DNA from: Pseudomonadota bacterium
GTDB taxonomy: Bacteria; Desulfobacterota; Desulfobulbia; Desulfobulbales; Desulfocapsaceae
NCBI GenBank assembly: GCA_018820855.1
Contig: JAHJNL010000029.1
Coordinates: forward strand, 1 to 64,000
DNA: 64,000 nucleotides
Direction: 5' to 3'
Of the stretch, positions 4,514 through 17,333 are shown piece by piece; within the stretch, counting starts at the first letter, position 1, and each line of letters opens with the position of its first letter. The notes under the pieces are model-generated. The model was not told where the DNA came from. It searched no databases and was given only the letters and a program-made list of their open reading frames with translations. Position numbers and translations under genes: made by a program.

Positions 4514-5752
4514 CTAAATAACAGCGGAGAGAGGAAATCTCTCACACAATGCACGCACTTCATTACGAACAGCAGCAATGCTCGCCTCATCCCGGTCTCT
4601 GATAACACGCTCAATCCAAGCGGCGATGAGTTCCATCTCGGCAGTTTTAAGGCCTCTGGTGGTAACAGCAGGGGTGCCGATTCGAACACCAGAGGTAACG
4701 AAACGCGGCTGACCATCAAAGGGAATCGCATTTTTATTAACGGTAAGCCCAGCCTTTTCAAGAAGCTCTTCAGCCTCTTTGCCAGTAATGTCTTTACTGG
4801 AAAGATCCAAGAGCAGGAGATGATTATCAGTGCCTCCGGACACCAAGCGGAAACCTTTATCAACGAGGCTTTTCCCAAGGGCGGCAGCGTTAACCACCAC
4901 CTGCTGTTGATATTTCTTAAAAGAATCACTCATGGCTTCTTTGAAACCGACTGCTTTGGCTGCAATCACATGAACGAGCGGTCCTCCTTGAATCCCTGGA
5001 AAAATCTTAGAATTAATGCTTTTCTCCCATTTGTTTCTAGCAAGGATCAATCCGCCTCTTGGGCCACGCAAGGTTTTATGAGTGGTTGAAGTGACAAAAT
5101 CGGCATAAGGTACAGGAGAAGGATGAACTCCACCGGCAATAAGGCCGGCAATATGTGCCATATCCACCATAAACAGAGCGCCGATCTGATCGGCTATTTT
5201 TCTAAATCCTTCAAAGTCGATAAACCGAGAATAAGCACTGGCTCCGGCCACGATCATCTTCGGGCGATTTTCAAAGGCAATACGCTCCACTTCCTCCATG
5301 TTGATCTTTTCGGTCTTACGATCAACACCATAGGAAATAAAATTAAACAACTGTCCTGAGAAATTAACATTGCTGCCATGGGTCAGATGTCCTCCATGAG
5401 CAAGATCCATGCCCAGGACTTTATCTCCTGGTTTCAGCGTCGCAAAATAGACTGCCATATTAGCCTGGGAACCGGAGTGAGGCTGCACATTGGCATATTC
5501 AGCACCAAATATTTCTTTAGCCCTGTCAATAGCCAGAGTCTCAACCTCGTCAGCATAGTCGCATCCGCCGTAATACCTCTTTTTAGGATACCCTTCTGCA
5601 TACTTATTTGTAAAAATAGACCCCTGTGCCTCAAGAATCGCACCAGAGACAATATTTTCTGATGCAATTAGCTCAAGCTGGCTATTCTGACGATCAAATT
5701 CACTGTTGATAAACCTAAAGACATCCGGATCTGTATTTTGCAAGGATGACAT
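4514..5752 (-). CDS. glyA: Serine hydroxymethyltransferase
   Basis: 412 aa; [27 protein letters not shown]...[18 protein letters not shown]-lysine motif. Confidence 0.97.
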
Positions 5753-5850: not shown

Positions 5851-6276
5851 TCAATTAAACAGCTCAATGCGACGCAAATGCCTTCCACCGTTAAAAGGGG
5901 TACTCAACCAAGTGCGAACAATCTCTTCAGCAATACCTGGACCAGTCACCCTTTCTCCAATGCATAGGACATTAGCATCATTATGTTCCCGACTCATGCG
6001 TGCTGTATATTGTTCACTACACAGCGCAGCCCTGATGTTGTCGTGTCTATTGGCAGCCATGGACATACCGATGCCGGTTCCACAGATCAGAATTCCCTTG
6101 TCTGCCTGGCCAGAGGTAACTTTTCCACACACAAGATCGGCAAATTGCGGATAATCAACGGAGTCGGTATCAAAGCAACCAACATCCTCTCCATCGTGAC
6201 CAAGCTCCTGCAACAAGGCAAGAACAATCGTTTTCAATGCAAGACCACCATGGTCCGAACCAACTGCTATCTTCAC
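5851..6276 (-). CDS. rpiB: Ribose 5-phosphate isomerase B
   Basis: MKIAVGSDHGGLALK...GILICGTGIGMSMAANR...ARMSREHNDANVLCIG. Confidence 0.95.
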   Translation of the reverse strand: MKIAVGSDHGGLALKTIVLALLQELGHDGEDVGCFDTDSVDYPQFADLVCGKVTSGQADKGILICGTGIGMSMAANRHDNIRAALCSEQYTARMSREHNDANVLCIGERVTGPGIAEEIVRTWLSTPFNGGRHLRRIELFN

Positions 6277-6326: not shown

Positions 6327-7571
6327 TTAGCCATCAAAACGCTTCATGATCACAACACCGTTCGTACCGCCAAAACCAAAGGAATTGGAAAGTGCAGCCC
6401 TTATCTCCATCTTCCTAGCTTTATTGGGAACATAATCGAGGTCACATTCAGGGCTGGGCGTATGTAAGTTGATGGTAGGTGGCGCAATCTGATCTCGAAT
6501 GCTAAGCGCCGTAAAGGCAGCCTCAATCCCGCCAGCGGCACCAAGCATATGCCCTGTCATCGACTTTGTTGAACTAATGGCAAGTTTTTTGGCGTGATCG
6601 CCAAAAACAGTTTTAATGGCCAGAGTTTCACATCGGTCATTAAGAGGTGTTGATGTCCCATGAGCATTGATATAATCAATGTCAGCAGGATTCATACCTG
6701 CGTCCTTCAATGCCATATTCATGCATCTCGCAGCCCCTTCACCGTCTTCAGGTGGCGCCGCGATATGATAGGCATCACTCGAAGCACCAAAGCCTACGAT
6801 CTCGGCATATATTTTGGCACCTCGCTTGAGAGCATGCTCAAGTTCTTCAACAACCAGCATTCCCGAACCTTCAGAGATTACGAAACCATCACGGTCCTTA
6901 TCAAACGGACGAGATGCCTGCTCCGGAGCATCATTTCTTGTGGACAAGGCCTTCATAGAACTGAATCCCCCGACTCCCAGAGGACAGACGACAGCCTCTG
7001 TCCCTCCGGTAACTACGACATCACAGTCTCCATAAACAATAGAACGGTACGCCTCACCCACCGCATGGGTTCCTGCTGCACAGGCGGTGGAAAGAGCAAG
7101 ATTCGGGCCCTTTGCTCCAATCTGCATGGAAATGTGACCGGAAGGCATATTGGGAATGGCCATAGGAATAAAAAAAGGTGATATTTTCTTAGCCCCGCGC
7201 TCAAGACAGGCAGTATGGGTTTTCTCAATGATGGGCAGCCCACCTATACCACAACCGGTAATTACACCGACACGAGTACAGTTTTCATTGTTGATCGTTA
7301 TCCCGCTGTCTTCTACGGCAAACTTTGCAGCCACGATACCATATTGAACAAAAAGGTCGAGATGTCTCGCGGCCTTTTTGTCAAAATGATCTTCCTGGTG
7401 AAAATCTTTAACCTCTGCTGCTATCTGAACAGAAAGATCACTTGTATCAAACCGAGTAATCAAAGCGACTCCACTCTTGCCAGCACAGATATTATTCCAG
7501 GTTTTTTCTGTTCCTGTCCCTAGGGGGGTTACCAGTCCAACGCCGGTAACCACGACTCTACGTTTTACCAT
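6327..7571 (-). CDS. fabF: Beta-ketoacyl-ACP synthase II
   Basis: RRVVVTGVGLVTPLG; catalytic STACAAGTHAVGEAYRSI; NAHGTSTPLND; GHMLGAAGGIEA. Confidence 0.97.
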   Translation of the reverse strand: MVKRRVVVTGVGLVTPLGTGTEKTWNNICAGKSGVALITRFDTSDLSVQIAAEVKDFHQEDHFDKKAARHLDLFVQYGIVAAKFAVEDSGITINNENCTRVGVITGCGIGGLPIIEKTHTACLERGAKKISPFFIPMAIPNMPSGHISMQIGAKGPNLALSTACAAGTHAVGEAYRSIVYGDCDVVVTGGTEAVVCPLGVGGFSSMKALSTRNDAPEQASRPFDKDRDGFVISEGSGMLVVEELEHALKRGAKIYAEIVGFGASSDAYHIAAPPEDGEGAARCMNMALKDAGMNPADIDYINAHGTSTPLNDRCETLAIKTVFGDHAKKLAISSTKSMTGHMLGAAGGIEAAFTALSIRDQIAPPTINLHTPSPECDLDYVPNKARKMEIRAALSNSFGFGGTNGVVIMKRFDG

Positions 7572-7644: not shown

Positions 7645-7875
7645 TTATTTCAAATTGTTTACAAAATCTATGGCATTCTGCACTGTACTGATCTTCTCTG
7701 CTTCTTCATCGGGAATCTCAACATCAAACTCCTCTTCCATGGCCATGATCAGTTCAACAAGATCCAAGGAATCTGCACCAAGATCATCAACAAAGGAAGC
7801 ATTGGGAACAACCTTTTCTTTATCAACACTCAGCTGCTCAACAATAATATTTACCATCTGCTCTTCAATTGCCAT
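7645..7875 (-). CDS. acpP: Acyl carrier protein
   Basis: 76 aa; phosphopantetheine site [20 protein letters not shown]. Confidence 0.97.
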
Positions 7876-7994: not shown

Positions 7995-8738
7995 TCACAT
8001 ATACATACCGCCGTTGACGTGAATGGTCTGCCCTGTGATATAGGTACTGTCATCACCAACCAGATAGGCAACTGCACCAGCCACATCTTCAGGTTTCCCA
8101 AGGCAGGCAAGAGGAATTTCCGCCTTGATCTTTTCCTGAATCTCCTCAGGCAGGGTACTGGTCATATCTGTTACAATATATCCTGGTGCCACTGCATTGA
8201 CAGTAATATTGCGGGAGGCAAACTCTTTGGCCATGGACTTGGTTAAGCCCTGCATACCTGCCTTGGCTGAGGCATAATTAACCTGCCCGGCGTTGCCGGC
8301 AAAGCCAATCACTGAAGAAATATTGACGATCCGCCCCCATCTCTTTTTCATCATTGCTCTGGACGCAGCTTTGGCGCAGATAAAAGAACCTTTAAGATTT
8401 GTATCAAGGACAGTATCCCAATCTTCTTCTTTCATCCTGGCCATGAGCCCATCCCTGGTGATACCAGCATTATTCACAAGAATATCAAGGGAGCCGGCAT
8501 CATGGATAAGCTTTTTTATAGCGCCTTCCGCTTGGGCAGGATCTGCAACGTTAAAGGCCAAAACATCTGCTGTCCCTCCAGCAGCAAGAATCGTTTGCCG
8601 AGTCTCCTCTGCAGCCTCTGGATTGCTCACATAATTTATATATACATGAGCGCCCATAACTGCAAGACGAATACAGACAGCACGTCCTATACCCCTACTT
8701 CCTCCAGTAACCAGTGCATTTTTTCCTTTTAGGCTCAT
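7995..8738 (-). CDS. fabG: 3-oxoacyl-ACP reductase
   Basis: SDR family: VTGGSRGIGRAV, NNAGITRDGLMARM, YASAKAGMQGLTKSMAKE. Confidence 0.96.
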   Translation of the reverse strand: MSLKGKNALVTGGSRGIGRAVCIRLAVMGAHVYINYVSNPEAAEETRQTILAAGGTADVLAFNVADPAQAEGAIKKLIHDAGSLDILVNNAGITRDGLMARMKEEDWDTVLDTNLKGSFICAKAASRAMMKKRWGRIVNISSVIGFAGNAGQVNYASAKAGMQGLTKSMAKEFASRNITVNAVAPGYIVTDMTSTLPEEIQEKIKAEIPLACLGKPEDVAGAVAYLVGDDSTYITGQTIHVNGGMYM

Positions 8739-9928
8739 GATTTTCGATGTCCTTCTATTTTACTGATAAGCATGGGGATAATTTTATACATGTCACCGAC
8801 AATACCGAAATCTGCCACATCAAAAATGGGTGCATTCTCATCACGATTGATGGCGACTATGGTCTCTGACGACTGCATCCCTGCTACATGCTGAATAGCT
8901 CCGGAAATACCGCAGGCAATGTAGAGTTTCGGAGCAACGGTTTTCCCGGTTTGCCCGACTTGATGCGGATATCCGATCCATCCGGCATCTACCACGGCTC
9001 GACTTGCGGCAACAGCAGCATCAATAGAATCGGCAAGCTCACGAATAAGCTCAAATCCCTTGGCATTATCCATCCCTCGGCCACCGGCCACCAGAATATC
9101 TGACTCCTGGATATTTACATCATCCTGCTCGAAAACAACTGACTCTAAAACACGCACCTTGGTCTGCAGTAAAACAGGATCCGGTGTGACATTTACAATT
9201 TTACCTTGCCGGGCAGCATCAAATTCCATTGCCTGCATTACTTTGGGACGAACAGTGGACATCTGAGGTCTGGAACTGAGACAAACAATGGTAGCCATGA
9301 TGTTTCCACCAAATGCTGGACGAGTCTGAAGAAGGGCTCCATCATCTAAACGAATATCGAGATGGGTGCAATCGGCTGTCAAACCGGCACCAAGACTATT
9401 AGCTACACCCGGGATAAAAGAACGACCTATCGCGGTAGCACCGGCAAGAACTATCTCAGGTTTATGTTTTTTGATCAAATCAATCAATACTGCGCCGTAA
9501 GCTTCATCCGTAAAATAAGCCAGAGCAGGGTCGTCCACCTGATAGACGATATCAGCGCCATGGCCGATCAGCCTCTGTGCGGTATCTCCTGTGCCCGCGC
9601 CTATAAGCACGGCAGAGAGATGCACACCACGGGCATCAGCAAGTTTTCGGCCTGCCCCGAGAAGTTCTAAAGACACTGGTGCCAAAGTTCCAGCTCTGAA
9701 TTCACAATAGACCCAAACACCACGCCAGCTGTCCAGATCTGCCTGAACGCTCTTTTCCGCACCTTCTATTTGCAGGGCCTCTACTTCACAATTCTCCACA
9801 CAGGCACCGCAGAGCGTACAGGCATCTCCAACCACGGCACAACCGTCGATAACTTCAATGGCACCAAAGGCACAACTTTCCTCACAGACACCGCAACCGA
9901 TGCACAGCTCACTATCTACGATCAACAT
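8735..9928 (-). CDS. etfA: Electron transfer flavoprotein alpha subunit with N-terminal 2[4Fe-4S] ferredoxin domain
   Basis: N-terminus CIGCGVCEESCAFGAIEV...CTLCGACVENCEVEAL, then EtfA domain ending in AACGISGAIQHVAGMQSSETIVAINRDENAPIFDVADFGIVGDMYKIIP. Confidence 0.95.
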   Translation of the reverse strand: MLIVDSELCIGCGVCEESCAFGAIEVIDGCAVVGDACTLCGACVENCEVEALQIEGAEKSVQADLDSWRGVWVYCEFRAGTLAPVSLELLGAGRKLADARGVHLSAVLIGAGTGDTAQRLIGHGADIVYQVDDPALAYFTDEAYGAVLIDLIKKHKPEIVLAGATAIGRSFIPGVANSLGAGLTADCTHLDIRLDDGALLQTRPAFGGNIMATIVCLSSRPQMSTVRPKVMQAMEFDAARQGKIVNVTPDPVLLQTKVRVLESVVFEQDDVNIQESDILVAGGRGMDNAKGFELIRELADSIDAAVAASRAVVDAGWIGYPHQVGQTGKTVAPKLYIACGISGAIQHVAGMQSSETIVAINRDENAPIFDVADFGIVGDMYKIIPMLISKIEGHRKS

Positions 9929-10076
9929 TATTTTCTCCTGTCTGCTTAGTGCCTTAAAAAATAATTTTCTTGATTGTTATGACAAGAAACTAAAGAATAA
10001 AGCAATCCCTTGCAGTACTACCAATTATAAAAGCACTTATATCCCTCAAAAGGGGTACAAAAAAAGTCCTTCAGAA

Positions 10077-10856
10077 TTAGAGGTAGACAGCAATCTTTTC
10101 AACCAACTGCTCGATTTGCTCTTCGACGGTTCCGGTCAAGACAGCCCTTTCGCCGCGAGGTGGCGGAGGAAAGACGCTGACCACCTGCGTGGGTGATCCT
10201 GCAAGACCTATGCAGGCCGAATCAGCTCCGATATCTTCAGCTGAAAGGATCTTGAACTCGGCCTTTTTCGCCTTCATCTTGCCTTTAAGCGAAGGAATAC
10301 GGGGTATGTTCAGATCTTTGACTACGGTCAGTAATACAGGCAATGAGACAGCTACCACATCGTAGCCGTCATCCATCATCCGCTCCAAAACTAATTCACT
10401 CTCACTGGCCTCCCGGACTTTCTGGATACAGGTGACAAAGGGGATATCAAGTTGGATGGCAAGACCTGGTCCCACCTGAGCGGTGTCCCCGTCAATTGCC
10501 TGTTTACCGCAAAGGATGAGATCGAAATCACCGATCTTATGAATGGCCTTGGCCAAGGTATAAGAAGTTGCCCAGGTATCAGCACCGGCAAAGGCCCTAT
10601 CAGACACAAGCACTCCATGGTCTGCCCCTAAGGATATGGCCTGCCGTAGAACGTCCACGGCCTGGGGTGGTCCCATACTCAGCACCGTAACTTCTCCACC
10701 CAGTTGTTCCTTTAACAGCACTGCCTCTTCCAAAGCATACTGGTCATAGGGATTCATTATGGACTGGACACCTTCACGGGCCAGGGTGTTTGTCTTCGGA
10801 TCCAAGCGTACATCTTTGGCATCTGGAACCTGTTTAACGCAGACAATAATCTTCAT
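10077..10856 (-). CDS. etfB: Electron transfer flavoprotein beta subunit
   Basis: MKIIVCVKQVPDAKDVRLDPKTNTL...INPYDQYALEEAVLLKE-like region, SDRAFAGADTWATSYTLAKAI, CGKQAIDGDTAQVGPGLA. Confidence 0.95.
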   Translation of the reverse strand: MKIIVCVKQVPDAKDVRLDPKTNTLAREGVQSIMNPYDQYALEEAVLLKEQLGGEVTVLSMGPPQAVDVLRQAISLGADHGVLVSDRAFAGADTWATSYTLAKAIHKIGDFDLILCGKQAIDGDTAQVGPGLAIQLDIPFVTCIQKVREASESELVLERMMDDGYDVVAVSLPVLLTVVKDLNIPRIPSLKGKMKAKKAEFKILSAEDIGADSACIGLAGSPTQVVSVFPPPPRGERAVLTGTVEEQIEQLVEKIAVYL

Positions 10857-10874
10857 TACATTCCTCTTGTCGTC

Positions 10875-12029
10875 TTATCTGCGGGAATATTCTTTGTTAA
10901 GTTCCTGACCGATAACGTTTCGCTGCACCTGATTGGTTCCTTCATATATCTGAAGGATTTTAGCATCACGCATCATTTTCTCAACAGGATATTCACGCAT
11001 ATACCCATAACCACCCATGACCTGAACAGCATCGATACTCACCTTCATGGCCATATCCGTGGCCATAACCTTGCACATAGAGGAGACCTTTGACATATCC
11101 TTGGGATGAGCATCTATATGTTTTGCAGCGGAATAGACCAGAGCACGTGAAGCTTCAAGCTGAATAGCCATATCCGCAAGTATGTGTTGTACGGCCTGGA
11201 AAGAAATGATAGGTTTGCCAAACTGCACCCGCTGCTTGGCATAGGTAGTTGACTCATCCAGGCACGCCTGTCCAATTCCAAGGCCTAACGCGGCAATACC
11301 TGGGCGAGAAGAGTCAAGCGTCTTCATCACCGTAACAAATCCAGTTCCCGCTCGTCCGATGATCCGGTCTTTGGGAATCCGGCAGTCTTTGAAGATTAGT
11401 TCAGTGGTCGATGAGGCACGGATACCCATCTTCTTTTCTTTGGGTCCGCAGGAAAAACCGGCATCACCCTCTTCCACAACAAACATGGAAGCCCCGCGAG
11501 GCCCTTTTTTTCGGTCAGTGATCGCAACTACTGTATAAATCTGCGCTTCACCACCGTTGGTTATCCACTGTTTGGTTCCATTCAGAACCCACTCTTCACC
11601 GTCTAAAACTGCTGTCGTTTGAATCCCTGAAGCGTCAGAACCGGCATTGGCCTCGGTAAGACCAAAAGCAGCAAACTTCTTCCCAGCGGCAACCGGAGGA
11701 AGATATTTTTCTTTTAACTCTTCAGATCCTGAAATAATGATAGGATAGACGCCAAGTGCACTGGCGGCGAAGGCTGTTCCCACTCCGATGCAGCCTCGGC
11801 CCAGCTGTTCCAACGCCAACACAATATCCAGACATCCACCGCCAAAACCACCATACTCTTCAGGAATCGGCACACCGAATAGATCAGCTTGAGCCATACT
11901 ATTTAGAATATCGCGCGGAAATTCATCTTTTCTGTCTAATTCAGCACGCTGTGGAATGATACGCTCGTCAGTAATCTGCTTAGCGATCTCTACAATCATA
12001 CTCTGTTCTTCTGAAAGAAAATAATCCAT
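10875..12029 (-). CDS. Acyl-CoA dehydrogenase
   Basis: 384 aa; FGLTEANAGSDASG, QWITNGGEAQIY, VQFGKPIISFQAVQ, QVMGGYGYMREYPVEKMMRDAKILQIYEGTNQVQRNVI. Confidence 0.96.
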   Translation of the reverse strand: MDYFLSEEQSMIVEIAKQITDERIIPQRAELDRKDEFPRDILNSMAQADLFGVPIPEEYGGFGGGCLDIVLALEQLGRGCIGVGTAFAASALGVYPIIISGSEELKEKYLPPVAAGKKFAAFGLTEANAGSDASGIQTTAVLDGEEWVLNGTKQWITNGGEAQIYTVVAITDRKKGPRGASMFVVEEGDAGFSCGPKEKKMGIRASSTTELIFKDCRIPKDRIIGRAGTGFVTVMKTLDSSRPGIAALGLGIGQACLDESTTYAKQRVQFGKPIISFQAVQHILADMAIQLEASRALVYSAAKHIDAHPKDMSKVSSMCKVMATDMAMKVSIDAVQVMGGYGYMREYPVEKMMRDAKILQIYEGTNQVQRNVIGQELNKEYSRR

Positions 12030-12041
12030 TGGTTCTCCTGT

Positions 12042-13019
12042 TTACCATCTTACCAAAGCAGCTCCCCAGGTGAACCCTCCACCAAAAGAACAAACCAAGA
12101 GCAAATCATCGGGTTTAAGCCTTCCTTCCCGGCTTGCCTCATCGAGTGCAATGGGGATGGAAGCAGCGGATGTATTACCATATTTCTGGACGTTTATGAA
12201 TACTTTTTCTGCAGGGAGACCTAATCGGGAAACAAGCTTATTGAGGATACGGATATTGGCTTGATGAGGAATCATGAGCCCAATGGTGTCAAGGTCCACC
12301 TTTTCTCTGGCCAGAAGGTCCAAGACGGCACCTTCCATTGCCTTAACCGCATATTTAAAGACTTCCCTGCCCTCCATGAGGATGTGAGTGCCGGGATGTT
12401 GCGGCGGATTAAGATCCGGGTTGCAGGAAGGAGCCGCATGCATACAGAGAAGACTCCAGAGATTACCATCAGAAAACAGATTGGAGGCAACAACTCCACG
12501 AGCTTCATCACGATATCCCATGACTACAGCACCTGCGCCATCTCCAAAGAGAATACAGGTATTTCGATCTTCCCAATCTGTGTGGCTGGAAAGTGTCTCG
12601 GCTCCAATAAGGAGAATTTTTTTCTCCCGATCGGCCCGAAGATATTTGTCAACCATATCCAGACCAAAGAGAAATCCGGAGCAGGCCGCGTTAATATCAA
12701 AGGCAAAGGCCTTTACTGCCCCCAGTTCCTTTTGCACAAAACAGGCACATGAAGGCATGAGCATATGAGAACTGATGGTGGCAACAACAATGAGATCGAT
12801 TTCCTCTGCCGTCACCCCTGCCATCTCCATAGCACGCTGACCGGCTACAGTTGCCAGGCGATATGCTTCTTCACCCTTACCACTGATCCGACGCGTCTTG
12901 ATACCGGTACGGGTCCGAATCCATTCGTCGCTTGTCTCGACTATTTTTTCAAGATCGTGATTTGAAAGAACCCTGTCAGGGAGACAGGAACCGGTTCCCA
13001 GAATAACCGCACCCATCAA
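12042..13019 (-). CDS. fabH: Beta-ketoacyl-ACP synthase III
   Basis: GTGSCLPDRVLSNHDLEKIVETSDEWIRTRTGI; FDINAACSGFLFGL; MIPHQANIRI; KYGNTSAASIPIAL. Confidence 0.97.
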   Translation of the reverse strand: MMGAVILGTGSCLPDRVLSNHDLEKIVETSDEWIRTRTGIKTRRISGKGEEAYRLATVAGQRAMEMAGVTAEEIDLIVVATISSHMLMPSCACFVQKELGAVKAFAFDINAACSGFLFGLDMVDKYLRADREKKILLIGAETLSSHTDWEDRNTCILFGDGAGAVVMGYRDEARGVVASNLFSDGNLWSLLCMHAAPSCNPDLNPPQHPGTHILMEGREVFKYAVKAMEGAVLDLLAREKVDLDTIGLMIPHQANIRILNKLVSRLGLPAEKVFINVQKYGNTSAASIPIALDEASREGRLKPDDLLLVCSFGGGFTWGAALVRW

Positions 13020-14035
13020 CTCCTCTCCCTGGTAGCATCAAGATTTTCGGCAATACTGTCTTCGATTTTTGCATTAACTTTCATTTCAACAATCTTTCCG
13101 GCTTCAATGAGTGCATTCTTAATTGCAGCGGTACTGGATTTTCCATGACAAATCAATCCTGTCCCATTGATTCCTAAAAGTGGAGCACCACCGTATTCAG
13201 CATAATCAACACGTTTTTTCAAACGACGAAATACCGGGCGGGCTAAGAGATAACCAATCTTGGACCGCCAGGAACTCATAATCCCTTCACGGATCATCTG
13301 TCCTGCAGCCTCGACCAATCCCTCACTTACCTTTAAGCAGATATTGCCTACAAAACCGTCACAGACTATGACATCCACATCACCCTGAAAGATGTCCCTG
13401 CCTTCAACGTTACCAATGAAGTTCAATGAACTTGCAGCCAGCATGGCATGTGCCTCTTTCACCAGTTGGTTTCCTTTTCCAGTTTCTTCACCAATACTGA
13501 GGATTCCTACACGGGGAGCATTGATATCGAAAATCGGGGAAAAGGCTGAAGCCATGAGGGCAAACTGAAACAGATGCTGAGGGCGACAATCTACATTGGC
13601 CCCTACATCCATCATAACCACTGGCTTTTTCAGGGTGGGAATAATACTGGCAAGTCCTGGCCGAGAAACGTTCTTCAAACGTCCGAGCTTACGAATGGCA
13701 GCAGCCATGGTTGCCCCGGAGTTTCCGGCGCTGACTGCAGCATCAGCTTCTCCATTACGCACAAGATCAAAAGCGACCATTACAGAGGCATTCTTCTTCT
13801 TGCGAATAGCCTCAACAGGGGATTCCCCCATTTCAACCATTTCAGACGTATGAACAATTTGCAGCCTGGACAACACATCGCTGCCTAGTGACAACCTGTC
13901 GAGGCAAGCACCAATAAGCTGCTCATCCCCGACCAGGGTCACCCGCAGACCGACTTCCTGCACTGCCTGTATTGCGCCGGCAATCAGCTCATCAGGCCCA
14001 TGGTCCCCTCCCATGGCATCCAAGGCAATATGCAC
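13016..14035 (-). CDS. plsX: Phosphate acyltransferase PlsX
   Basis: IALDAMGGDHGP; SAGNSGATMAAA; MDVGANVDCRPQHL; EYGGAPLLGINGTGLICHGKS. Confidence 0.97.
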   Translation of the reverse strand: MHIALDAMGGDHGPDELIAGAIQAVQEVGLRVTLVGDEQLIGACLDRLSLGSDVLSRLQIVHTSEMVEMGESPVEAIRKKKNASVMVAFDLVRNGEADAAVSAGNSGATMAAAIRKLGRLKNVSRPGLASIIPTLKKPVVMMDVGANVDCRPQHLFQFALMASAFSPIFDINAPRVGILSIGEETGKGNQLVKEAHAMLAASSLNFIGNVEGRDIFQGDVDVIVCDGFVGNICLKVSEGLVEAAGQMIREGIMSSWRSKIGYLLARPVFRRLKKRVDYAEYGGAPLLGINGTGLICHGKSSTAAIKNALIEAGKIVEMKVNAKIEDSIAENLDATRERS

Positions 14036-14045
14036 GGCAAACGTC

Positions 14046-14234
14046 CTACTCTAATTCCGCATCCAAACTAAAAACAGAACGCCCCTTATACATACCGCAG
14101 CTCGGGCAAAGACGATGAGGTTGTTTGGGTTCACCGCAATCGGCACAGGTTGAAACCCCAGGTGCCTTCAAGGCATCATGAGATCTTCTTTTATGGGTAC
14201 GAGAATGGGAATGTCTTCTTTTGGGTAGAGCCAT
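14046..14234 (-). CDS. rpmF: 50S ribosomal protein L32
   Basis: [55 protein letters not shown]; true start is the internal ATG at 14234, not the ORF start at 14345. Confidence 0.95.
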
Positions 14235-14284
14235 GCTTTCCTCCAATAGATCAACTGCCGTCAAGCGGCATGAAATAACTAATT

Positions 14285-14778
14285 TTATTTTATTTTTTCC
14301 AAAACAGCATAAGAAGGACCTGAACCTTTTCGGGTGCATTGACATGCATTTTTATTCAGATTCACTCCACAGCAAACACATAATCTCTGCATCCATCTTT
14401 ACATATAAGATGAGCAGGCAAGGCCAGAATAAGCTGCCCCTGGAAAATCATGTCTCTTTCAATAAACGGCTCATCAACATGCACCGTTCCACAACCTTTT
14501 TAACTGCAACAATACTCATTTACTATTTACGGTCCATTTGCCAGCCACAAATGGTAAGCGTTTCGTCAAATTCGAAGTGCATCTGCTATTGCAGTATAAA
14601 TCAAACCAACCAGCAGATATCGAACAGAATGCACAGTCAGTTGCTGCGCCGTTTATCTGCGATATCAATTTGTATCAGTATACTCTGCTCAAAATCATCA
14701 TCGGATCAATGTAATCGATTCGGTGATTCTGAATCTATTACTCTCATTGGTAATGTCACTAAGTTGACTCTTCTTTAT
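14285..14778 (-). pseudogene. Degraded DUF177 (YceD family) gene upstream of rpmF
   Basis: Hand translation of the minus strand gives DUF177-like pieces in successive but different frames: KKSQLSDITNESNRFRITESITLIR (~14775-14701), LYCNSRC, KGCGTVHVDEPFIERDMIFQGQLILALPAHLICKDGCRD (14499-~14386), then [32 protein letters not shown] (14383-14285). No single frame spans the gene. Confidence 0.8.
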
Positions 14779-14943: not shown

Positions 14944-15378
14944 CTATAAAACGCGAGCAAGCCTGTCTGATGTCCTTTCCAGGCGCAACGTGACAATAGA
15001 GAGAATATGCTCAAGGAAACGACAAGTCAGTTCCTTAGACTGTTCTTTGAGTTTGGCAAAATCATGCCTGTCCAGACAATAGAGTCTGCAATCTTCAATG
15101 GCTACAATCCGTGTCTGACGAACATGGCCTTGCAGGAGGGCCGCCTCACCGACCATAGCCCCCGGATCCAACAAGGCAATAACCTGTAGCTTTTCTTCGA
15201 ATCCAGTATACTTATGAACAGAAAGACGCCCCTCACTCAAAAAATACAAGATGTTGGCAGGATCACCATATTCAAACAAAACCTCTCCCGCCGAAATGCT
15301 TTTTTCACTCAGCAGCGCAGAAAGGAAATGACGTTCATCCTCATCAAGAAAATCCAAAAAGGAAAAAGAGGTTTCCAC
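14944..15378 (-). CDS. Single-domain cyclic nucleotide-binding (Crp/cNMP-fold) protein
   Basis: 144 aa; LSEKSISAGEVLFEYGDPANILYFLSEGRLSVHK...LLDPGAMVGEAALLQGHVRQTRIVAIEDCRLYCLDRHDFAKL; no HTH domain. Confidence 0.85.
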   Translation of the reverse strand: METSFSFLDFLDEDERHFLSALLSEKSISAGEVLFEYGDPANILYFLSEGRLSVHKYTGFEEKLQVIALLDPGAMVGEAALLQGHVRQTRIVAIEDCRLYCLDRHDFAKLKEQSKELTCRFLEHILSIVTLRLERTSDRLARVL

Positions 15379-15998
15379 TAGTTGCTGCCCTCAGTAGAAA
15401 AACTGGCATTTTTCTCTTCTATAACCTTGACCAACCCGTCAAATTTTTCTTTTCTAAGAATTGATTTGAACTGTTCCCTAAAATTTCGGACCAGACTTAC
15501 GCCTTCTATATTGATGTCGTAGACTTTCCAGCTGGATTCCTTCTGTAGCATGACATAATGAACAGGAATAGCGACTCCATTGTTATCAACGACAGTGGAA
15601 ACTTGCGCTTTATCTCCCTTTATTCGTTCATCCTGAAATTTCACTTCCTGGCCCGAATAGCTCTCAAGTTTTCCAATGTAAGTATTTTCAAGCAGTTTGG
15701 TGAAAAGCTGCTCAAAATGTGTCTGCTGCTGCTGATCGATGGTATTCCAGGTCTTACCCAACACCAGTTTCGCCATCTCCGGGAAATCAAATCCCTGCGT
15801 GGCAATAGCCATTATTTTGGCTCGTCGTTCCTCTTTATGCTGTATTCCTGAGAGACTTGAATCAGCTAGAATATCAATGATTTTATTGAGGGTGGGCTTC
15901 AGCTCTTCGGTGGGCCCCAGTGAAGCCAGGGCAGCAGGCAATCCACTGAGGACAAAGAAGAGACAGAGGCTAAGAAAAAAGAAACGCTTGGCGTTCAT
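15378..15998 (-). CDS. mlaC: MlaC/Ttg2D family phospholipid-binding ABC component
   Basis: 206 aa; signal peptide; FDFPEMAKLVLGKTWNTIDQQQQTHFEQLFTKLLENTYIGKLESYSGQEVKF. Confidence 0.9.
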   Translation of the reverse strand: MNAKRFFFLSLCLFFVLSGLPAALASLGPTEELKPTLNKIIDILADSSLSGIQHKEERRAKIMAIATQGFDFPEMAKLVLGKTWNTIDQQQQTHFEQLFTKLLENTYIGKLESYSGQEVKFQDERIKGDKAQVSTVVDNNGVAIPVHYVMLQKESSWKVYDINIEGVSLVRNFREQFKSILRKEKFDGLVKVIEEKNASFSTEGSN

Positions 15999-16025
15999 CG
16001 CGATATCCTCACGGCTAAAATTTGA

Positions 16026-16856
16026 TTATAATTCATCAACAACATTCTGTGTTGAAGCTTTATCCTTAATCTTGTTTCTTCTGTAGTCGAGATAGACCTG
16101 GCGCATAGATACATAGGGATCCAGTGAATACTTCTTCAGATCTTCGTAAGCATCCGGATTAAGGGAGAGCAAGTTGATTTTATTTTCGGAATAGTAGGCC
16201 GTACTGACCAGAAGATCATCATTAAAATAGACCACCGGATGCGAATAGACGTCTACACCAAAACCTAACGTATCTCGTGCATTAGACGGTCCGAGAATAG
16301 GCCAGCAGAAATAGATACCCTCCCCCACCCCCCAGAGGCCAAGGGTCTGACCAAAATCTTCGGGTTTTGGTTCCAGTCCGAAATCGACCAGAGCCGGATC
16401 CCCTAAACCATACACACCAAGTGTGGAATTAATGAGAAAACGAGAGAGTTCAATTCCCGCATCACTGAATTTTCCCTGCAACAGATTATTCAAAAGCCGG
16501 ATTGGAGCAGCAAGGTTGGTAAAAAAATTACCAAAACTGTAACGTATATCTATCGGCAGGACGGCGGTGTATACCTTGTTTACGGGTTTCATGACCCAAT
16601 AATAGAGTTTGTCGTTAAACTCAAAAAAGACCCTGTTCATTGGCTCCAGGGGATCATAATACCTCGGTTCACGATTAAGAGGATCTTCATCGAAAAAATT
16701 GTCATTGAGGAGGTCTAACTCATTCTCTTCCCCTTGAGCAGCTTCCAGCGATGGGGCATGGTCTCTGCTTGCCTGTTGACGTTGGGCACAACCCAAAGGA
16801 ACCAGCAAAAAAATCACCATCAAATAAACGATACTGTATCTCATAGTTGTCAACAT
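16026..16856 (-). CDS. mlaA: MlaA/VacJ family lipoprotein
   Basis: Lipobox VPLGCAQ; DPLEPMNRVFFEFNDKLYYWVMKPVNKVY...LGVYGLGDPA...EDFGQTLGLWGVGEG. Confidence 0.93.
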   Translation of the reverse strand: MLTTMRYSIVYLMVIFLLVPLGCAQRQQASRDHAPSLEAAQGEENELDLLNDNFFDEDPLNREPRYYDPLEPMNRVFFEFNDKLYYWVMKPVNKVYTAVLPIDIRYSFGNFFTNLAAPIRLLNNLLQGKFSDAGIELSRFLINSTLGVYGLGDPALVDFGLEPKPEDFGQTLGLWGVGEGIYFCWPILGPSNARDTLGFGVDVYSHPVVYFNDDLLVSTAYYSENKINLLSLNPDAYEDLKKYSLDPYVSMRQVYLDYRRNKIKDKASTQNVVDEL

Positions 16857-16883
16857 AGCGGGAACAACCCTGAACCGCCCAAA

Positions 16884-17333
16884 TTATTTTACATTGCCAA
16901 AGGCAAACTTGCTTATAAGAGACTCAAGATCTATCGCGGATTCGGTATCGGTCAGGATATCACCTTCATGAAAGAACTCTTCCTCACCTCCCAGAGATAA
17001 CTGTACGTATTTATCTCCAATCAGACCCTGTGATTTAATCGAGGCCATGGAATCAGTGCTCAGTTTTACTTCTTTATTTATCAGTAAAAATACATTGGCT
17101 ACGCCATCTTCATCAAGCCAGACCTTGGCAACCTCCCCAACCACCACTCCGGCGACCTGTACTGAAGCACCATTTTTTACCCCGGAAATATTATCAAACT
17201 GGGCGGTGATGGTATAATTTTTACCGCGGTTTAAGAACGAGACCTCACCAAGTTTCAGGGCTAGATAGCCAAAGGCGAGAAACCCGGCAATCATAAATAT
17301 CCCTACCCAGAATTGTATACTGCTATTTTTCAT
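16884..17333 (-). CDS. mlaD: MCE-domain protein MlaD
   Basis: 149 aa; IQFWVGIFMIAGFLAFGYLALKLG...YTITAQFDNISGVKNGASVQVAGVVVGEV. Confidence 0.92.
   Translation of the reverse strand: MKNSSIQFWVGIFMIAGFLAFGYLALKLGEVSFLNRGKNYTITAQFDNISGVKNGASVQVAGVVVGEVAKVWLDEDGVANVFLLINKEVKLSTDSMASIKSQGLIGDKYVQLSLGGEEEFFHEGDILTDTESAIDLESLISKFAFGNVK

Follow-up and report, generated by a model that had tools for sequence, protein, structure and literature searches.

Among electron transfer flavoproteins (ETFs), the segment DGDTAQVGP marks binding of the bifurcating flavin (b-FAD) and is missing from non-bifurcating members, and mutation of such sites strongly lowers or abolishes coupling (PMC9232219). The arginine R136 and the flavin interface of one of the closest described systems, Bcd-EtfAB, are also documented (PMC5691135); the other close relative is CarCDE. 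Here we analyse a module of three genes, acd, etfB and etfA, encoding an acyl-CoA dehydrogenase (Acd) and both ETF subunits, in a stretch of 64,000 nucleotides, hereafter the window (GenBank assembly GCA_018820855.1, contig JAHJNL010000029.1, positions 1 to 64,000), from a bacterium of the Desulfocapsaceae. The module lies within a set of fatty-acid synthesis (fab) genes on the minus strand, and the open reading frames (ORFs) of the window follow the order rpmF-plsX-fabH-acd-etfB-etfA-fabG-acpP-fabF-rpiB-glyA, where etfA includes a 2[4Fe-4S] domain. In known enoyl-acyl carrier protein (ACP) reductases, NAD(P)H supplies the electrons for the double bond directly. We propose that the module is, on balance, probably a CarCDE-like enoyl-thioester reductase dedicated to type II fatty-acid synthesis, driven by NADH and probably reducing ferredoxin as well.

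The best PDB match of EtfB is CarD (6FAH_B, 256 bits) and that of EtfA is CarE (6FAH_A, 428 bits); EtfB scores 216-256 bits with bifurcating ETFs against at most 108 bits with canonical ones. Besides DGDTAQVGP, EtfB has the NAD site RAFAG at residues 87-91 and the SPT anchor at 221-223, all of these motifs being at, or at most two positions from, the LctB numbering, and Arg203 of EtfA corresponds to R136 of C. difficile and R205 of LctC, the arginine that makes contact with N5 of b-FAD. DGDTAQVGP is present in 99 of the 102 fab-linked EtfB sequences (the exceptions are two fragments and one DGETAQVGP) and RxFxG in 93 of them, while SPT is found in only 59, with GSFT, GSAT and GSTT elsewhere. 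The RPAxGG segment, which holds the b-FAD arginine, occurs in 97 of the 98 fab-linked EtfA proteins, and both Fe-S motifs are kept in 96. By these diagnostic residues the ETF of the module is of the electron-bifurcating type, closest to CarDE. The preliminary description of the window had likened the module to CarCDE and pointed to the N-terminal ferredoxin domain of EtfA and the DGDTAQVGP segment of EtfB, and all three observations hold. The ETF is neither closest to human or Paracoccus ETF nor of the kind with AMP in place of b-FAD, as in canonical group 1 respiratory ETFs, and no grouping with these was found, so that its assignment to the bifurcating type stands.

The Acd consists of acyl-CoA dehydrogenase domains by Pfam and has neither the short-chain dehydrogenase/reductase (SDR) fold nor the FMN-containing nitronate monooxygenase (NMO) fold of FabI, FabK, FabL and FabV. 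Its best PDB match is Bcd of C. difficile (5OL2_C, 398 bits), CarC being 12th with 309 bits. All 112 fab-linked Acds retain the catalytic Glu and the flavin-bridging Trp (W166 of MCAD), and they are without the one-residue (+1) insertion of Bcd. In a maximum-likelihood tree with two Bcd, two actinobacterial and catabolic Acds as references (CarC left out), 71 fab-type Acds form one clade (UFBoot 100, SH-aLRT 96), separate from all of these. Ala is present at the position of MCAD Glu99 in 110 of 112 fab-linked Acds, a position that we take to be at the bottom of the acyl pocket, where small residues presumably deepen it in VLCAD; this hints that the Acd pocket may fit longer-chain substrates. 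A related enzyme, LCAD, is the subject of PMC11153573. An AlphaFold model of Acd built from 11 sequences had a mean pLDDT of 55 and was not used.

The module is widespread in our genome census, which is a sample in which draft incompleteness can mimic gene absence. A search for EtfA of the module type succeeded in 242 of the 258 Desulfobulbia genomes (146 of the 149 good ones), nearly always with a single copy, and the module lies inside the fab operon, in the fabH-fabG interval, in 20/20 Desulfobulbia loci fetched, a contig end falling within the module in one of them. It also occupies the fab operon in 18 further fetched Desulfobacterota genomes from 16 other families, with Acds 62-70% identical, whereas at other ETF loci of the phylum the Acd partners are 33-44% identical, or none is nearby. 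Named genomes, when scanned, extend this range to Desulfacinum hydrothermale, Desulfocarbo indianensis, Syntrophobacteraceae, Candidatus Desulfofervidaceae and Nitrospirota, and very similar loci are present in named contigs of Desulfocapsa, Desulfopila and Desulfobulbaceae. In Nitrospirota, acd adjoins plsX-fabH in some genomes and stands alone in others; at three loci of this phylum a fab-type acd has neither ETF nor fab genes beside it. Of the large proteins of the operon, Acd is the best conserved, exceeding FabF in 18/19 and 15/15 loci. Membership of the module in the fab operon is thus conserved among Desulfobulbia, other Desulfobacterota and some Nitrospirota loci, and since the gene order is kept phylum-wide, a chance arrangement is excluded; a recent, poorly conserved insertion, which the preliminary description had considered, is not borne out by this ancient synteny. 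In the literature searched, which covers few subscription journals, this operon arrangement is not described.

The position of the module within the operon is informative in a different way from that first supposed. The preliminary description had noted that fabD is absent between fabH and fabG in the window, which is correct, and had placed the module where fabD would be expected, which is not upheld. The sole fabD found in the source genome (4.82 Mb in 106 contigs, examined by searches plus the stretches around matches) lies in an ileS-lspA-fabD-bioB cluster (G000:C6:65856), and in three other Desulfobulbia loci fabD is upstream of rpmF/plsX. It directly follows etfA at three loci of deeper-branching Desulfobacterota, and is also found after etfA at six Nitrospirota loci. 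It follows that the module has not taken the place of fabD, and a missing fabD is rejected as its explanation; the ancestral order appears to have been plsX-fabH-acd-etfB-etfA-fabD-fabG, with fabD lost from the operon later. The fab locus of another genome of the phylum (G265), in which the source genome's EtfA had no match at E 1e-100 and which we therefore count as being without the module, reads fabF-x-plsX-FabK-fabD-acpP-rpiB, and its FabK is authentic (478.6 bits, the curated cut-off being 453). Here FabK stands between plsX and fabD, and thus in the same position as acd-etfBA. In firmicute fab operons FabK likewise follows fabH/plsX. The parallel with FabK is suggestive of an enoyl reductase role for the module.

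An acyl-CoA dehydrogenase with an NADH-linked ETF in the slot of FabK fits enoyl reduction, and we consider it probable that the module carries out this step of fatty-acid synthesis. In the preliminary description an alternative enoyl reductase was one of the ideas put forward, and it gains support from the conservation in fab operons, the FabK slot and the bifurcating-type ETF. In the mechanism that we envisage, Acd would hold the trans-2-enoyl chain at its d-FAD, the carrier being most probably ACP and possibly CoA, and b-FAD in EtfB would take a hydride from NADH and then bifurcate, one electron passing via the a-FAD shuttle of EtfA to Acd and the other via the 2[4Fe-4S] domain of EtfA to ferredoxin. 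For the 2 NADH spent in two turns, one enoyl group and two ferredoxins would be reduced, and the energy lost with FabI or FabK would be saved. With potentials of -10 mV for crotonyl-CoA/butyryl-CoA, -320 mV for NADH and near -405 mV for ferredoxin (PMC5691135), bifurcation is thermodynamically favourable.

Several observations weigh against this proposal. The source genome encodes a FabL (NF005975, 357.9 bits against a cut-off of 328) together with a divergent FabI, in which Ile replaces Tyr146 while Tyr156 and Lys163 are kept, so that the module is not its sole candidate enoyl reductase, and the possibility that no other is present in this genome is ruled out. The search for fabD, fabI, fabK and fabV suggested by the preliminary description accordingly recovered fabD, FabL and the divergent FabI, and any loss of fabD from the genome falls away. 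A FabI/FabL-type match is present in 126 of 134 Desulfobulbia genomes. FabV (PF12241) had no match in the 17 Desulfobulbia genomes searched for it, where the positive control gave none either. Furthermore, module-less control genomes are without a known reductase almost as often as module genomes outside Desulfobulbia (16/33 against 13/18, Fisher p=0.14), and absence is therefore not specific to module genomes, though some of these controls may contain relatives of the module that escaped notice; a phylum-wide anticorrelation of the module with FabI/FabK is in the expected direction but not significant, the test being underpowered. The FabK-slot parallel is a single case, acyl-ACP as the substrate is an even call, and bifurcation instead of simple NADH use is rather likely only once an enoyl reductase role is granted.

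There are also genomes in which the module could explain fatty-acid synthesis where FabI, FabL or FabK is not recognisable. Eight Desulfobulbia genomes are without a FabI/FabL-type match, and three of these, including one that is a single contig and 100% complete (G186), keep only FabX-like proteins. Outside Desulfobulbia, a FabI/FabL/FabK candidate that rises above FabG-like noise is missing from 13 of the 18 module genomes (FabI-query matches above E 1e-20 and FabK-model scores <200 bits being discounted), and 10 of the 13 have no FabK-like match at all, among them two in which the module is on chromosome-sized single contigs (G591 and G448).

Three further protein families were encountered in these searches. 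The divergent FabI (L003:1477-2298) has Desulfobulbia relatives 69-79% identical to it, with Ile for Tyr146 in all aligned and Tyr156 and Lys163 kept. Another product of the source genome is an NMO protein, FabX/FabK-like, whose four clustered cysteines follow the pattern C-x3-C-x3-C-x4-C (L006:1462-2451, on its contig C73), 62-83% identical across the Desulfobulbia checked, which in a strict anaerobe would need an acceptor other than O2. Several Desulfobulbia genomes without FabI/FabL share an SDR family of about 270-280 residues in which Tyr-x3-Asn replaces Tyr-x3-Lys.

The next most plausible explanation, though clearly a minority one in our estimate, is that the module is the same enoyl reductase working without bifurcation, NADH reducing both flavins and all electrons passing to the enoyl group. 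Two more points that tell against our proposal would favour it, namely that the AcrCAB models are the best NCBIfam matches of Acd and EtfA, albeit below cut-off, and that acryloyl-CoA reductase of Clostridium propionicum apparently does not bifurcate; moreover, flavin motifs by themselves are no proof of bifurcation (PMC5861303). On the other hand, the 2[4Fe-4S] domain is retained in nearly all fab-linked EtfA proteins, EtfB aligns to CarD almost without gaps, and the AcrB profile is five positions longer than EtfB over the aligned stretch, the insertion in the C. propionicum ETF being thought to block ferredoxin (PMC9232219).

It is less probable that the module supplies starter units, with Acd-Etf converting CoA esters, such as crotonyl- to butyryl-CoA, to feed FabH instead of taking part in every elongation cycle. 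The placing of acd directly after fabH, Bcd as the closest PDB chain of Acd and the CoA thioester substrates of all characterised relatives are consistent with such a role, but the module is kept at five loci with no fabH detected nearby, the pocket helix of Acd is MCAD-like and not Bcd-like, and genomes without other recognised enoyl reductases would be left unexplained. Slightly less probable again is a dehydrogenase that oxidises acyl-ACP or acyl-CoA, perhaps towards anaerobic unsaturated fatty acids, with the ETF as an O2-independent acceptor. FabX does dehydrogenate acyl-ACP in fatty-acid synthesis with O2 as the only known acceptor (PMC8626469), for which a strict anaerobe needs a substitute, and acyl-CoA dehydrogenases are reversible; however, a FabX-like NMO protein is already present in Desulfobulbia, the operon slot matches that of FabK, and on thermodynamic grounds bifurcating ETFs would accept electrons from saturated thioesters poorly, except where those of reduced ferredoxin are confurcated. 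A catabolic or acyl-chain turnover enzyme (beta-oxidation, or the lipid-linked redox valve of the preliminary description, for which no specific support emerged) that lies among fab genes by happenstance is very unlikely, for although Acd-ETF pairs are typical of beta-oxidation and some module hosts have further Acd-ETF loci (as in G337, with the loci L190 and L191), catabolic-type loci pair their ETF with Acds outside the fab-type clade, the module ETF is the only one found in the source genome, which together with the phylum-wide fab linkage makes fatty-acid synthesis a much likelier role, and the single ETF and separate Acd clade disfavour a beta-oxidation ETF.

The features of the locus are collected below. 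The module is likely cotranscribed with the fab genes as an operon, given gaps of 12 nt (fabH/acd), 18 nt (acd/etfB) and 148 nt (etfB/etfA) and a 4-nt etfA/fabG overlap; these, together with the conserved synteny, agree with the operonic arrangement of the preliminary description, all of whose ORFs are found in the order given there. Consensus promoter and terminator matches in the operon are at chance level only, and a promoter inside the 148-nt gap was rejected on the same ground. At four other loci about 1.5-2 kb of additional sequence separates etfB from etfA. Directly upstream of the fab operon are mlaD, mlaA, mlaC and a gene for a cNMP-binding protein (window 14944-17333, minus strand), so that phospholipid transport genes adjoin those of lipid synthesis.

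Table 1. Coordinates in the window of the acd-etfB-etfA module, its motifs and the adjoining genes
Feature	Position	Strand	Remarks
acd	10875-12029	-	384 aa, acyl-CoA dehydrogenase family flavoprotein; predicted enoyl-thioester reductase subunit
acd catalytic Glu363 codon	10941-10943	-	
etfB	10077-10856	-	259 aa, bifurcating-type ETF beta (CarD/FixA-like); predicted b-FAD and NADH binding
EtfB DGDTAQVGP b-FAD recognition motif, aa 122-130	10467-10493	-	sequence
etfA	8735-9928	-	397 aa, ETF alpha, CarE-like, N-terminal 2[4Fe-4S] ferredoxin domain
EtfA 2[4Fe-4S] ferredoxin domain, aa 1-59	9752-9928	-	two CxxCxxCxxxC
fabH (ketoacyl-ACP synthase III)	12042-13019	-	NF006829 and TIGR00747 above cut-off
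plsX	13016-14035	-	PF02504
rpmF (ORF as called)	14046-14345	-	PF01783, domain over residues 39-92
fabG	7995-8738	-	TIGR01830 above cut-off; start overlaps etfA stop, 4 nt
acpP (acyl carrier protein)	7645-7875	-	homologues in same place in other loci
fabF	6327-7571	-	Pfam
rpiB, conserved downstream neighbour	5851-6276	-	
glyA, conserved downstream neighbour	4514-5752	-	

A bifurcating enoyl reductase would couple an exergonic step of fatty-acid synthesis to the reduction of low-potential ferredoxin, a saving that would matter for energy-limited cells such as sulfate reducers and sulfur disproportionators. More tentatively, the module could form a class of enoyl-ACP reductase of its own, the fifth: an ancient complex of Acd and bifurcating ETF, dependent on ACP, that couples every elongation cycle in much of Desulfobacterota and part of Nitrospirota to ferredoxin reduction and serves many of these genomes as their main or sole enoyl reductase. 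If so, membrane synthesis itself would conserve energy, electron bifurcation would extend from energy metabolism into core anabolism, and energy recovery during lipid building would be previously undescribed.

Among known systems, CarCDE, the caffeyl-CoA reductase-Etf complex of Acetobacterium woodii (PDB identifier 6FAH), shares with the module the gene order Acd-EtfB-EtfA, the 2[4Fe-4S] domain of EtfA and all bifurcation residues, but the module Acd is closer to Bcd than to CarC (398 against 309 bits) and the module sits in a fab operon, outside any caffeate context. Bcd-EtfAB of Clostridioides difficile (PDB identifier 5OL2) has the Acd family, the catalytic Glu and a bifurcating ETF in common with it; it differs in that its EtfA is without a ferredoxin domain, and the module Acd lacks the +1 insertion, has Trp for Phe155 and Met for Thr343 at the flavin interface and falls in a separate clade (100/96). 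FabK (enoyl-ACP reductase II) is found in G265 at the operon position of the module, between plsX/fabH and fabD, but is an unrelated FMN TIM-barrel enzyme without an ETF, and we know of no link between FabK and bifurcation. For EtfA and Acd the top-scoring NCBIfam models are those of the AcrCAB acryloyl-CoA reductase of C. propionicum, which rank second for EtfB, though the scores with NF042970-2 are below the curated cut-offs (370/600, 244/475 and 420/640 bits), and that enzyme is apparently non-bifurcating (PMC5861303), with an ETF insertion of its own (PMC9232219). FabX of Helicobacter pylori is, like the module, a flavin/Fe-S redox enzyme within type II fatty-acid synthesis (PMC8626469), but it is an O2-dependent dehydrogenase/isomerase of unrelated fold, and the source genome encodes a separate FabX-like protein alongside the module.

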